A program made the position numbers and the translations under genes. Shown one piece after another: positions 17,454 through 21,688 of a stretch of DNA of 25,492 nt; position 1 is the first letter of the stretch, and each line of letters begins with the position of its first letter. The stretch comes from Tannerella sp. GTDB taxonomy: Bacteria; Bacteroidota; Bacteroidia; Bacteroidales; Tannerellaceae. The DNA is taken from the NCBI GenBank assembly GCA_031279875.1, contig JAITHS010000120.1:1-25492 (forward strand), read 5' to 3'. Under the pieces are notes generated by a model. It ran no database searches, was not told the origin of the DNA, and saw only the letters and a program-made list of their open reading frames with translations.

Positions 17454-17496
17454 AAATCCCTGTAAACAGCAAGTTTACGGGGATTTTTGTTTTTTT
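17454..17496 (+). terminator. Intrinsic terminator of dnaK
   Basis: A 14-bp stem (17454-17467 against 17473-17486, one G-T pair) with a 5-base loop is followed by a T-rich run to 17496. It lies 35 bases after the dnaK stop. Its T-run also supplies the -33 TTTG of the next promoter. Confidence 0.85.
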
Positions 17497-17517
17497 GATA
17501 AAAAATAATTATCTTTG
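17486..17517 (+). promoter_or_regulatory. Bacteroidota-type promoter of the radical SAM cassette
   Basis: TTTG at 17486-17489 and TATCTTTG at 17510-17517 are 20 bases apart, matching the TTTG-N19/20-TAnnTTTG consensus. Transcription would begin around 17525, which rules out the upstream TTG at 17495 as the start of the next gene. Confidence 0.8.
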
Positions 17518-17545: not shown

Positions 17546-18391
17546 ATGGAAATTAAATCTGTAAACAACACACAACAACCCAATTATCCTACTATTGAGT
17601 TGTTTGTAGAGCATCCGGAATTGTTGTCGCGGAACATTCCGAACAAATGGCTCAAAAATCAATTCGTGGCAACTTCTCTTGCTGCATTTATGCTTTCAAG
17701 TTGCGGAAAAAGTACCGCCGCAAAAATTGAAAAAATTGAAACAGTTGATACTTTGAAAGCAAATAGTCCGACAAGTACGCCACAGACACAAAAGAAAAAG
17801 GCAAAGAAAAATCTTGTTACAAATGTTGCACCTGTTTTTGCACACGGAGAAGGTCGAGGTTCGGTAGGTTGTATAGTATTCTCGCCGCCTGTTTTCATAT
17901 CCGAAGATGAAGCGATGAAAATCATTTTGGATAAATTGAAAGCCGAAGGATACAATTTCAGCAGGGAAAATTGCCCGACTATTCCGCTTGAAGTATTACC
18001 TATTGCAAATGAATGTAGAGCAAAAGAAGGTGCGCCGAAAGGAAACGTAAAAATCGAATTGAAAATGGAAGCTTATAATGAAAATTCCAATTGGTCAATT
18101 CAATTTATTGCGCGAAATGACTACGAGAAATTAAAAAATGATAATTGTTTCTCGTCTGCTACCAGTTACGACCTCAAACGTGCGGCAGAAGTTATCAATC
18201 AGGAGTTAAAAAAACAGAAAGAAACTAATGTAGTTGTTTTTTACGACCCCGTAGCGCAAATTAAATCTAACGATTGGACAAAGGATAAAGAAAACAGAGT
18301 ACTTGCACATAAAGATGAAAAAGAAATGTTGCTCGCACAAGTTGAAGATTTTATTAAATGGCTCAAAACAAATAAAATAACAATAGAATAA
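17546..18391 (+). CDS. Lipoprotein-like putative substrate/partner of the radical SAM enzyme
   Basis: A 281-residue protein. ATG 17546 is chosen because the earlier in-frame TTG (17495) lies inside the promoter. Layout: residues 1-36 are a polar, leader-like segment (NYPTIELFVEHPELLSRNIP), followed by hydrophobic 40-50 and a lipobox LSSC (Cys53) that sits unusually far from the N-terminus. Then come a Thr/Lys-rich linker (60-90), a striking block from Pro96 to Phe117 with HGEGRG and GCIVFSPP, and a mixed charged domain to the end. Cys residues are at 53, 109, 143, 157 and 201. It shares TAATG with the next gene (one-base overlap), so the two are co-translated. I do not recognise a named family. 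The leader-like N-terminus plus the maturase neighbour suggests it is modified by that enzyme; this is inference. Base composition is AT-richer than neighbours. Confidence 0.8.
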   Translation: MEIKSVNNTQQPNYPTIELFVEHPELLSRNIPNKWLKNQFVATSLAAFMLSSCGKSTAAKIEKIETVDTLKANSPTSTPQTQKKKAKKNLVTNVAPVFAHGEGRGSVGCIVFSPPVFISEDEAMKIILDKLKAEGYNFSRENCPTIPLEVLPIANECRAKEGAPKGNVKIELKMEAYNENSNWSIQFIARNDYEKLKNDNCFSSATSYDLKRAAEVINQELKKQKETNVVVFYDPVAQIKSNDWTKDKENRVLAHKDEKEMLLAQVEDFIKWLKTNKITIE

Positions 18392-19497
18392 TGCACGTTA
18401 CCTTGCATCTAACAACAGGCTGCAATTTGAATTGTCGCTATTGCTATTCGCCACCGACAAGTCGTAATGATATGTCGCAGCAAACGGCTTTTCAAACTAT
18501 TGATTTTATTTCCGAAAACTATCCTGTCAATACGGGAATTATATTTTTTGGCGGCGAGCCGCTTTTGAAAAAGGATTTAATTAAAGAAACCATTGCATAC
18601 AGCCATACAAAATCAGGATATTTTCATTACAAAGTTACTACAAACGGCATTTTACTTGATAATGATTTTTTGGAATATGCAAGCAAAGTAAATTTGCAAA
18701 TCTCTATTAGCGTTGACGGTAACGAGCAGGCACACAATACATTCAGACGATTTCCCGACGGCAGCACAACTTTCGGAATTGTAAACGAAAAAATTGATTT
18801 GCTTCTACATTATCAACCCTATTCCAAAGTATTAATGACTGTTTCGCCCGAAACGCTTGCGCATTATGCCGATTCGGTTGAGTTCCTTCTGAATAAAGGC
18901 TTCAAATATATAATTGTTTCGCTTGATTTTTCTTCAAAAAACTGGAATAACATCTCTCTCAAAGAATTAAAACGACAATACAAGCGCATTTCCGCAATTT
19001 ATGAAACACGCATTTTAAAAGAAGAAAAATTTTATTTTTCGCCTTTTGAAATGAAACTTGCAAGTCATATACGCAAAAACAATTTTGAATGTTATCAATG
19101 TCATTTAGCCCAAAGGCAAATTTCGGTTGCTTTTGACGGACTGATTTATCCTTGTGTGCAGTTTGTGAAAAACAGCGAATATGCTATCGGCTACGTTACG
19201 GAAGGAATTGACGGTGAAACACAAAATCGGCTTTATAAAGAATCGAAAACTCAAACGGAAGAATGTTTGAAATGTGATTATAATCCGCGCTGTAACAACA
19301 AATGCAGCTGTTTGAGTTGGCAACTTACAGGCACAATCAATCAAGTTTCGCCGCTTATCTGCGAAACGGAACGAATATTGATTCCGATAGCAGACAAGTT
19401 AGGCGAGAAACTGTTTAAGAAAGCTTCTCCAATGTTTATACAAAAACATTACAACGCCGTATTTCCCATTTTGTCAATGATTGAAGATATGCAATAA
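18391..19497 (+). CDS. Radical SAM/SPASM-domain enzyme (peptide/protein maturase type)
   Basis: A 368-residue enzyme. The radical SAM [4Fe-4S] motif CxxxCxxC is at Cys11, 15 and 18 (CNLNCRYC), and the SAM-binding FFGGEP is at 52-57. The C-terminal SPASM domain, which binds additional iron-sulfur clusters, is complete: CHLAQRQISVAFDG then GLIYPC, later CLKCDYNPRCNNKCSC (the CX2CX5CX3C spacing) and a final Cys in ICETER. SPASM enzymes mostly modify peptides or proteins using a 5'-deoxyadenosyl radical. The GGEP motif and the lack of HGGE-type sulfatase-maturase features argue for a peptide maturase. It starts at the stop codon of the 281-residue partner, the obvious candidate substrate. Sampled GC is low here (18 of 60 bases at 18961-19020) compared with dnaK (31 of 60 at 16201-16260), suggesting separate ancestry. 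Confidence 0.9.
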   Translation: MHVTLHLTTGCNLNCRYCYSPPTSRNDMSQQTAFQTIDFISENYPVNTGIIFFGGEPLLKKDLIKETIAYSHTKSGYFHYKVTTNGILLDNDFLEYASKVNLQISISVDGNEQAHNTFRRFPDGSTTFGIVNEKIDLLLHYQPYSKVLMTVSPETLAHYADSVEFLLNKGFKYIIVSLDFSSKNWNNISLKELKRQYKRISAIYETRILKEEKFYFSPFEMKLASHIRKNNFECYQCHLAQRQISVAFDGLIYPCVQFVKNSEYAIGYVTEGIDGETQNRLYKESKTQTEECLKCDYNPRCNNKCSCLSWQLTGTINQVSPLICETERILIPIADKLGEKLFKKASPMFIQKHYNAVFPILSMIEDMQ

Positions 19498-19542: not shown

Positions 19543-20313
19543 ATGAAACAACTGACAATAATTAAAGTTGGAGGCGCAATAGTTGAAGAAAACAGCGCCC
19601 TGAACATTCTGCTGGCAAGTTTTGCCGCTATTGATGGAGCAAAAATACTCGTTCACGGCGGCGGAAGACTTGCTACTGTGATGTGTAACCGTCTCGGAAT
19701 AGAAAGCCGCATGATAGACGGACGACGTATAACAGACGAGGAGACTTTGAACGTTGTAACGATGGTTTACGGCGGACTTGTAAACAAAAATATCGTAGCA
19801 CGGCTACAATCTCTCGGTGTCAATGCTGTGGGGCTGACCGGCGCAGATATGAACGTTATTCGCTCCGAAAAACGTCCCGTTAAGGATATTGACTATGGCT
19901 ATGCCGGTGATGTCAAAGAAGTTTGCATTGATGCTTTTAACATGCTGCTTGAAGGTGGTTTCATACCGGTATTGTCGCCTCTTACACATGACGGTAAAGG
20001 CCTGATGCTCAACACTAATGCCGACACTATTGCATCCGAAACAGCCAAAGCCATGTCGAAAGTTTACGACGTAACATTAATATATTGTTTTGAAAAAAGC
20101 GGTGTTCTGCAAGACGAACACGACGATACCTCCGTCATCTCCCGCCTTGACAGCGCGCTATATGCGGAGTATGTAAGTAAAGGAATTATAACCGGAGGCA
20201 TGATACCCAAATTAGATAACGCATTTCGAGCCATTGCTTCCGGCGTCCGTCGCGTTATAATAACAAAAGCATCCGCCCTCAACGCACCCGAACAAGGTAC
20301 TGTGATAGAATAA
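19543..20313 (+). CDS. argB: N-acetylglutamate kinase (or N-succinylglutamate kinase)
   Basis: A 256-residue amino-acid-kinase-fold enzyme of the arginine pathway, phosphorylating the gamma-carboxylate of an N-acylated glutamate with ATP in the cytosol. Visible residues: IKVGGAIV with Lys8, HGGG (38-41), [11 protein letters not shown] with Arg62, [20 protein letters not shown] (Asn/Asp) and [10 protein letters not shown] with the late catalytic Lys. Length and motif order are normal. Some Bacteroidota use succinylated rather than acetylated intermediates in arginine synthesis, so the natural acyl group may be succinyl. No other arg gene is present in the window. The sulfatase gene begins 16 bases after its stop and may be co-transcribed. 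Confidence 0.93.
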
Positions 20314-20329
20314 ATATACATTATATAAT

Positions 20330-21688
20330 ATGTCAAAATCAGTCAACACAATTCTTCTCGGTACGACAGCACTTACTCTATTTGCCGAAAATAAGCAAAA
20401 CTCAACTGCCGTAACAAAGTCCCCGCGTCCTAACGTTATCTTTGTTCTGACCGACGACCTCGGCTATTCCGACCTCAGTTGCTACGGCAATCCTGTTATC
20501 CACACGCCGTTTCTCGATTCTTTGGCAGCAAACGGCGTCAGAGCAACAAACTACTGCGTTACAAGCCCTTCCAGCACGCCTTCACGGGCATCGCTGCTAA
20601 CAGGACGCTATGCCACGCGCTCAAAACTGCCCACTCCGATAGGCCCCGGCTCTAAATTTGGTATAGCCGACGAAGAGATAACTATCGCCGAAGTACTTAA
20701 AAGCGTCGGCTACAATACCGCTATGGTCGGCAAATGGCATCTGGGCGATAACCGCACGTTTAACCATCCGAACTCACAAGGTTTTGATTCGTATTTCGGA
20801 CTTCTGTATAGCCATGACTATCGCCCTCCGTATGTCAATACCGATTCTACGCTGTACCTTTTCCGAGACCGCATACCGGAAAGAAAACTCACTACCGATA
20901 CGGTTCTGACAGCTCTTTACACCGATGAAGCGATACGTTTTGTGAGCCGACAGACTAATGACAAGCCGTTTTTCCTCTACCTTTCTTATAACATGCCGCA
21001 TCTGCCGATTGCTTTTGCGGCGCAGGCTTCGGCGCTTGCCAAAAAACGTGATTATAACGGTGAACTTGGCGCTATCGTCGAAGAAATGGATGAAAATCTG
21101 GCCCGATTGTGGCAAACACTTGAAAAACTTGGGCTTGATGATAATACCGTATTCATGTTTTCGAGCGACAATGGCCCATGGGTGGAATATCCCGAACGTA
21201 TGGCGGGCGACGGACAGACACTTCGTAACCATGTGGGCGCCGCAGGTATTTTCAGAGGCTCAAAAGGACAAACATACGAGGGTGGCGTCCGCGAACCGTT
21301 TATCGTTTACTGGAAAGACCGGTTGCAGAAAGGGCTGCTGTTCAATCCTGTCAGCAATTTGGACGTATTTCCTACTCTTACGGAATGGGCAGGCGCGTCT
21401 CCGAATGTCAATAAGCCGCTCGACGGTCAGTCGATTGCTACTCTTCTTACGGGTGAGGCCGACCGCAAAAACTATGTCCACCGTCCGTTTTATCTTGTCA
21501 ACGGAAAAGTAGAAGCCGTTCGCGACGGTCAGTGGAAATATCGCGAAGTATCTTCGTCGGGTCCCGAACTGTATAACGTCAACCGTGACCCAAGTGAGCG
21601 TGTCAATTTGATAGACATAGAACATGTCAAAGCCAAAGAGATGAAAAAACTCTTCGATGCCGCCGCCGCAGATGTAAATATGAAGTAA
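20330..21688 (+). CDS. Serine-type family S1 sulfatase
   Basis: A 452-residue arylsulfatase-like enzyme. The formylglycine site is S82-T83-P84-S85-R86 ([12 protein letters not shown]), so Ser82, not Cys, would be converted to formylglycine by an anaerobic radical SAM maturase. Calcium and active-site residues include TDDLG (Asp42-Asp43), GKWHLG (Lys135, His137), MPHLP (His224) and SSDNG (Asp280-Asn281), then [15 protein letters not shown], a typical S1 segment. The N-terminus ([16 protein letters not shown]) is a weak signal peptide; export is likely but not certain. Such enzymes remove sulfate from host or algal glycans, for example fucans or mucin. It is unlinked to the fucose-type operon but could feed it; that link is speculative. 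Confidence 0.93.

Follow-up and report, generated by a model that had tools for sequence, protein, structure and literature searches.

The window, a 25,492-nucleotide stretch of DNA from an 80% complete draft assembly of Tannerella sp., contains a two-gene unit on the forward strand downstream of dnaK. The first gene encodes a 281-residue protein, referred to here as the partner, and the second a 368-residue radical SAM/SPASM enzyme whose ATG overlaps the partner stop codon (TAATG), an arrangement that the initial annotation had described and that our analysis confirmed. The unit comprises the following features.

17454..17486, + strand: terminator hairpin after dnaK, the upstream border of the unit (RNA fold -18.7 kcal/mol, followed by a T run)
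17486..17517, + strand: match to the Bacteroidota-type promoter pattern TTTG-N20-TATCTTTG (pattern search)
17546..18391, + strand: partner gene (ATG at 17546, stop TAA at 18389-18391; 281 aa), product predicted to be exported and the probable substrate
17546..17656, + strand: leader, residues 1-37, with P12-x-Y14-P15 and W35, ahead of the signal/TM segment (from conservation)
17660..17704, + strand: hydrophobic signal/TM helix, residues 39-52, and lipobox LSSC ending at Cys53 (helix by model, lipobox by sequence)
17819..18370, + strand: folded domain, residues 92-275, predicted to be exported (from the structure model)
17843..17872, + strand: core loop HGxGxGxxGC, residues 100-109 (from conservation)
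18391..19497, + strand: radical SAM/SPASM enzyme gene (ATG at 18391; 368 aa)
18421..18444, + strand: CX3CX2C radical SAM cluster site, residues 11-18 (three Cys in 40/40 cassette enzymes)
19099..19362, + strand: SPASM region with Cys237, 255, 292, 295, 301, 305, 307, and 324 (all eight in 40/40)

The hairpin that borders the unit is strong, with a z-score of -5.25 and none of 200 shuffled sequences equally stable. The promoter pattern, which we take to be the Bacteroidota consensus, occurs four times in the window against 0.78 expected, and four matches were reached in 3 of 100 shuffles; the promoter proposed earlier just upstream of the unit thus has a pattern match behind the terminator that is only suggestive of a real promoter. 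The GC content of the partner and enzyme genes is 36.2% and 36.3%, compared to 45.4-53.5% in 12 other window genes that were hand-chosen among the longer frames, and their GC3 is 30.5% and 34.7% compared to 41.6-62.3%. The cassette is indeed AT-richer than its neighbors, and its foreign composition, together with the patchy spread described below, fits the transfer that had been suggested. Downstream, a gene for an AA_kinase protein, ArgB-like in looks (19543-20313), lies between the cassette and a sulfatase gene two genes after it (20330-21688; Pfam Sulfatase, 209 bits).

The enzyme matched Pfam Radical_SAM at 62.6 bits and Pfam SPASM at 16.5 bits, the latter below its cutoff of 21.5. Its initial description as a complete SPASM-type radical SAM enzyme is borne out by its cysteines: those of the CX3CX2C site and those of the SPASM region for two auxiliary clusters (3 + 8) are present in all 40 aligned cassette enzymes, the window's included, and all eight SPASM cysteines are also found in the L061 enzyme, which belongs to another group. 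The radical SAM motif starts at residue 11, so the enzyme has no N-terminal recognition domain. Cys307 is one cysteine more than SCIFF maturases or CteB have: it is kept in 40/40 cassette enzymes and, among the related enzymes described below, in 6/6 of the short type, in 3/3 at L160, L161, and L061, and in 2/2 of the LPH-GTG type, whereas position 307 is Ala in 4/4 SCIFF maturases and in CteB (5wgg). The top NCBIfam model for the enzyme was PapB (NF047865; 205.6 bits, cutoff 340), and no cutoff was reached among the best 25 of 87 matched models; the PapB model was matched by 41/41 cassette enzymes at 1e-20 or better. The earlier remark that no named system is known with exactly this layout agrees with these scores, no named family's cutoff having been reached among the matches listed, and a search of the titles and abstract openings of open-licence PMC papers, from which absence from print does not follow, found none describing the enzyme-partner pair. 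Two candidate functions were rejected, namely an anaerobic sulfatase maturase (TIGR03942; 106.3 vs 349 bits) for the downstream sulfatase and an antiviral viperin, for which the PADLOC pVip matches (65 bits) cover residues 3-116 only, the shared radical SAM core.

A protein search identified 126 relatives of the partner, of which the best 120 were taken on and 50 were aligned as a query (A1). With open frames from the loci described below, the pool comprised 197 reads, 181 of them at least 220 residues long; reads from loci run from stop to stop, and enzyme presence is known only for these. After rows at least 80% alike and rows of fewer than 150 positions were left out, 145 non-redundant rows remained, 121 of which cover the leader. 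Among the near-invariant parts of the partner are P12-x-Y14-P15, W35, VAPxFxHGxGxGxxGC, PPVFxSExE, FYDP, and the C-terminal QVxDFxxWL. In the leader, P12 is conserved in 118/121 rows, Y14 in 119/121, P15 in 117/121, and W35 in 117/119, and the pattern P-x-[YF]-[PA] occurs in 173 of the 181 long reads. In the loop, Cys is conserved in 142/144 rows, His in 139/145, and the four Gly in 144, 145, 136, and 144 of 145. The near invariance of the motif and leader columns in 145 relatives is far beyond chance. Residues 100-115 of the window partner, HGEGRGSVGCIVFSPP, contain the HGEGRG...GCIVFSPP block that had been singled out as unusual.

The polar, leader-like N-terminus of about 36 residues that had been recognized ahead of a lipobox corresponds to a leader of about 37 residues, with the lipobox LSSC ending at Cys53. 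Since it lies ahead of the hydrophobic helix, the leader would be the part of the partner still cytoplasmic when export begins. A simple lipobox pattern occurs in only 92 of the 181 long reads and a twin-arginine-like one in 18 of the 181, which means that lipidation does not define the family; the reading of the partner as a surface lipoprotein is consistent with the window partner and these 92 reads but does not hold generally. Nor is the partner a short precursor peptide, as its 281 residues include a confidently modelled domain: the AlphaFold model of residues 88-281 alone has a pLDDT of 92.7 and a pTM of 0.89. No clear structural relative of this fold was found, family searches gave no recurrent family match for the domain, and no NCBIfam cutoff was reached by the partner, the sole match at E 1 being EexN (12.8 vs a cutoff of 33). 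The D...(D/E)xK catalytic residues of a PD-(D/E)XK nuclease were sought in the domain and not found as a set: column 183 is Val/Ile in 140/145 rows, with no Lys; column 170 is Asp in 131/145 (Glu in the window), and column 181 is Glu/Gln in 124/145.

A search of contigs with the single partner sequence returned none, and the alignment query A1 identified 61 partner loci in one-per-species genomes, whose titles include Bacteroidetes, Clostridia, Planctomycetota, Armatimonadota, Acidobacteriota, Deltaproteobacteria, Hydrogenedentes, WOR-3, and others. The two-gene unit is patchy and spread over many bacterial phyla. Within the host genus, a search at 1e-60 found the enzyme in a single one of 41 genomes, and the partner was present in 1 of 37 (within 61 genomes searched); within the host class, the partner was found in 1 of 395 genomes and the enzyme in 2 of 395 (at 1e-90). 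This rarity, together with the composition, fits a recent acquisition by the host, with the caveat that the host assembly is an incomplete draft. A mobile element was considered and rejected, with no cassette match on plasmids or viral contigs. An empty-site comparison of 25 ArgB loci from 24 other genus genomes matched no dnaK, sulfatase, or cassette within the 1.9-3.8 kb covered, so synteny gave no insertion point.

Apart from six loci with glycoside hydrolase-like (GH2) fusions described below, the enzyme lies directly beside this conserved candidate substrate in 47 of 55 loci and within 3 kb in 49. The initial annotation had raised the question of whether proteins with the HGEGRG/GC block always sit beside the enzyme; most of the partners at these loci do, but the block does not accompany this enzyme family everywhere, as ten newly found clostridial enzyme genomes, described below, lack the motif. 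The 47 comprise 44 in which a script placed the enzyme immediately downstream, including a broken copy at L005, and three added by hand: L015, missed through an artefact of the open-frame limit; L050, with a broken enzyme on the other strand; and L053, where the enzyme piece is cut by the contig end. At L044 the enzyme lies 2.3 kb downstream of the partner and at L022 0.7 kb upstream, the contigs of L040 and L048 end at the partner, and L025, L039, and L041 have no enzyme nearby and the pair elsewhere in their genomes. Between two and four partner copies occur in 14 of the 44 adjacent loci, a count that leaves out L004 and L047, in which one gene was read in two frames (16 by script alone). 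When the neighbors in 62 stretches were clustered, the partner family was present in 57, the enzyme family in 45, and any other family in at most 7; none of the eight recurrent neighbor families listed looks by eye like a transporter or protease. Partner and enzyme distances across 32 pairs are correlated (Mantel r 0.78; 0 of 5000 permutations), a correlation that also reflects shared host ancestry.

The genomes of all 61 loci were searched with an enzyme profile (A2) built from the window enzyme and 40 locus enzymes, cut and near-duplicate ones being left out, at 1e-50 for 50 loci and at 1e-20 for 11. The enzyme was found in 49 of 52 non-GH2 host genomes (47/50 at 1e-50 and 2/2 at 1e-20); the A2 search did not find it in the genomes of L005, L048, and L052, absences that are weakened by draft genomes. 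The remaining six of the 61 loci (L054:5382-8606, L055, L057, L058, L059, and L060) encode Verrucomicrobial proteins with a copy of the partner domain at the C-terminus. All six carry GH2-type Pfam domains, of which the L058 and L060 frames hold only the later parts, and none of the six genomes has the enzyme (A2 at 1e-20). Wide occurrence of the partner without the enzyme had been named as counting against their relationship; the domain does exist enzyme-free as the C-terminus of GH2 glycosidases, but the non-GH2 genomes nearly all have the enzyme. The six GH2 copies keep VAPVFKHGxG, followed by HxDSxVASR, and have no GxxGC; being similar to one another and all from one phylum, they probably represent one event. 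At L052, whose genome gave no enzyme at 1e-50, the loop reads HGSGKGFMGQ, with Gln in the region of the Cys. The absence of GxxGC from the GH2 copies and L052, in genomes without the enzyme, indicates that the loop Cys and its Gly context travel with the enzyme. The L048 partner, which is cut by the contig end, keeps the motif although the search of its draft genome did not turn up an enzyme. In two further losses of the loop Cys (P0111 and one L011 tandem copy), the following Pro-Pro is also gone. The fusion to GH2 in Verrucomicrobia hints at a role of the surface domain near polysaccharide breakdown.

Related enzymes are found beside partners with other cores. Within the class to which Pseudobacteroides cellulosolvens belongs, which we take to be Clostridia, the enzyme occurs in 16 of 391 genomes at 1e-90, six of which were already in our set. 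None of the ten new genomes has HGxGxGxxGC, and nine have an adjacent leader-bearing protein (by eye); at L169 the enzyme is broken and no leader was seen by eye. The partners at L160-L162 have a diverged but recognizable domain without HGxGxGxxGC. Those at L163-L168 are adjacent leader-bearing proteins of 67-127 residues (L164, L165, L166, and L168), 155 residues (L167), or 216 residues (L163), with lipobox-like sites and, in many, repeated [L/Y]xG motifs. The short lipoproteins (L164-L168; P0241-P0265) combine an MKIxPxKxYKKPLYA-like leader, a lipobox, and repeated [L/Y]xG cores, and one to three of them lie beside one radical SAM enzyme. Scans of four of them against Pfam and three against NCBIfam reached no family cutoff; a search with one of them returned 25 relatives, every one of which has YKKPLYA in its leader, a result biased by the search's need for shared words. 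A third core, LPH...GTG.PARL, follows the same leader in G387 (L159) and L124, with the partner (L159:557-1468, L124:4139-5050) upstream of the related enzyme in one and downstream in the other. Against the PapB model, related enzymes scored 190.5 (L165), 172.8 (L159), and 176.9 (L163) bits. Inspection by eye showed no leader-bearing partner within 6 kb of the related enzyme at L127:999-2147 (361 bits), nor a partner for those at L125 and L126 (303 and 263 bits). The initial annotation had counted an enzyme beside unrelated precursors in relatives against the proposed relationship. Other cores are indeed present at L159-L168 and L124, but the leader is nevertheless retained, and we read these partners as one leader with several cores and not as evidence of no link.

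In a tree of the enzymes, made with one model only and containing a long branch to the short group, the short-type and L160-L162 enzymes fall inside the HGxGxGxxGC clade (28-row fork, support 98/96), the LPH-GTG enzymes fall outside it, and a 10-row fork (100/99) unites L162, the short types, L127, and two cassette enzymes. This nesting suggests that a large Cys-bearing domain came earlier in Clostridia and was then reduced. Of 19 partner copies inspected beside related enzymes, 8 have no exported Cys by script, or 9 if the one Cys counted in the first L162 copy is that of its lipobox, to which the sequence points; of 25 short-type homologs, 18 have a Cys downstream of the lipobox. No exported Cys was seen in any adjacent copy at L061, L053, L160, or L124. 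In L061:7965-8837 and L053:4422-5390, a common NYPGG insertion replaces the HGxGxGxxGC loop.

We consider it likely that the two genes form a self-contained maturation unit for leader-guided modification of a Gly-rich loop before export. The cytoplasmic radical SAM/SPASM enzyme would recognize the N-terminal leader of the partner, KPV...P-x-Y-P...W, and modify the HGxGxGxxGC loop of its folded domain; the partner would then be exported and tethered via its lipobox Cys or TM helix. We infer all four elements of this scheme, that is, the partner as substrate, the leader as docking site, the loop as target, and the timing before export. The scheme is favored by the enzyme-partner linkage across phyla and the enzyme-free GH2 and L052 copies without GxxGC; by the leader and loop being among the most conserved parts of the partner, with correlated distances; by the tandem partner copies and the persistence of the leader in partners with other cores; and by the absence of a transporter or protease look among the eight recurrent neighbor families listed. 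Counted against it are the L048 motif without an enzyme, the L125-L127 enzymes without a partner, and the probable single event behind the GH2 control. The loop could instead be conserved for folding or ligand binding. That the two genes are uncoupled neighbors spread jointly by chance transfer has next to no probability: the patchy distribution and foreign composition would suit it, but both genes recur in the same order in many phyla while other neighbors differ. It is improbable, to a lesser degree, that the partner is a membrane-bound helper, carrier, or sensor for an enzyme whose true target is elsewhere in the cell. Unlike a disordered core peptide, the partner domain is confidently modelled, with no recurrent family match, as a helper might be; several diverging partners per enzyme fit a substrate better, however, and extra partners occur away from the enzyme in genomes with the pair elsewhere, the GH2 copies without the enzyme have no GxxGC, and short lipoproteins replace the domain beside nested enzymes.

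Within the maturation unit, the likeliest product in the Cys-bearing branch, put forward tentatively by analogy to PapB and CteB, is a thioether that links Cys109 with a residue close by. The match to the PapB model says little about the chemistry, since SCIFF maturases score higher with it (273-289 vs 205.6 bits). In place of the repeated Cys-X3-Asp/Glu motifs of a PapB-family peptide substrate, the loop has a single near-invariant Cys, with no conserved acidic residue up to six residues after it; the most nearly conserved acidic position, 102, lies seven residues before Cys109 and is Glu/Asp in 119/145 rows, so a PapB-type bond is possible but would have the reverse order and a non-invariant acceptor. 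Moreover, the adjacent copies without exported Cys at L061, L053, L160, and L124 rule out a Cys thioether as the universal reaction. These copies, with the 8 (or 9) of 19 lacking such a Cys, point to the main rival, in which the partner is the substrate but no substrate Cys is used: a core C-alpha radical would be quenched from enzyme Cys307, giving D-residues, or carbons would be joined, and Cys109 would have a separate role. Cys307 is kept in all cassette, short-type, and LPH-GTG enzymes and is Ala in SCIFF maturases and CteB, and according to a review (PMC8326336), epimerases rely on a critical Cys of the enzyme, and what separates them from thioether formers is whether the radical encounters a Cys of the enzyme or of the substrate. 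On the other side, the loop Cys in 142/144 rows of the main branch would be hard to explain if unused, 18 of 25 short-type homologs have a Cys after the lipobox, and an eighth SPASM Cys is described in the accessible text of PMC10352776 for another radical SAM enzyme that is thought to make thioethers. We keep the thioether first for the Cys-bearing branch and regard the Cys-independent chemistry, mainly epimerization, as unlikely though well short of negligible.

We give about even weight to a broader view, that the pair represents an unnamed, widespread class of systems: a radical SAM enzyme would recognize a peptide extension preceding a signal sequence and, prior to export, alter a loop of a folded surface protein. 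In Clostridia, this enzyme lineage would have moved to short lipoproteins with repeated [L/Y]xG cores in which the leader and lipobox are retained; one clade would then span the maturation of proteins at one end and that of RiPP-like lipopeptides at the other, with chemistry that does not require a substrate Cys throughout. If this is true, bacteria would have a further means of placing unusual residues on their surface, through an enzyme that acts on a folded, tethered surface domain and docks on a sequence N-terminal to the signal peptide. With a Cys-bearing loop and Cys-free cores in related lineages, thioether formation and epimerization should be separable by one kind of co-expression experiment, and the pair is testable because it is small and present in named strains (Pseudobacteroides cellulosolvens, Hungatella hathewayi, and Bacteroides sp. 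214, whose partner lies in two frames).

Several known systems resemble the unit in part. The best solved relative of the enzyme by sequence is the SCIFF maturase CteB/ScfB (5wgg; 202.5 bits with the enzyme profile), which differs in having about 100 residues ahead of the aligned part and Ala at position 307; four SCIFF maturases of host genomes also branch apart in the tree. The rSAM_w_lipo model (TIGR04133), which we take to describe a lipoprotein-partner system, likewise concerns a radical SAM/SPASM enzyme, and its name implies a lipoprotein partner, but the window enzyme scores 76.2 bits against its cutoff of 425. The precursors on which radical SAM peptide maturases typically act are short and are cut afterwards; unlike RiPP precursors, the window partner is large, although its relatives at L164-L168 are short. 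PapB, the top-scoring named model, aligns with the window enzyme from the first residues of both, with no N-terminal extension, but the score falls short of the cutoff and of those of the SCIFF maturases. In the accessible text of PMC9413430, PapB joins Cys to Asp/Glu in Cys-X3-Asp/Glu peptide motifs and accepts Cys-Xn-Asp with n of 0-6, whereas the window pair would involve one loop of a large exported domain. The MNIO-modified bufferins carry Sec signal peptides, a feature described as rare for RiPPs; some of these signal peptides are of lipoprotein type, and some bufferin precursors are long (accessible text of PMC12452194). They are a precedent for signal peptides on modified precursors, but their enzymes belong to an unrelated class with partner proteins, and the signal peptides are described there as standing in place of leaders, not behind them. 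As far as the accessible text of PMC7876137 describes it, QhpD carries out cytoplasmic radical SAM work on a protein subunit, QhpC, that is held by a 28-residue leader, after which a protease removes the leader and QhpC exits through an ABC transporter encoded in the operon. QhpD is thereby a precedent for leader-held modification of a protein ahead of export; the window enzyme scores 119 bits against the QhpD cutoff of 453, and in contrast to QhpC, its partner has a leader that precedes a signal/TM segment and belongs to a unit beside which no recurrent protease or transporter gene was seen by eye.
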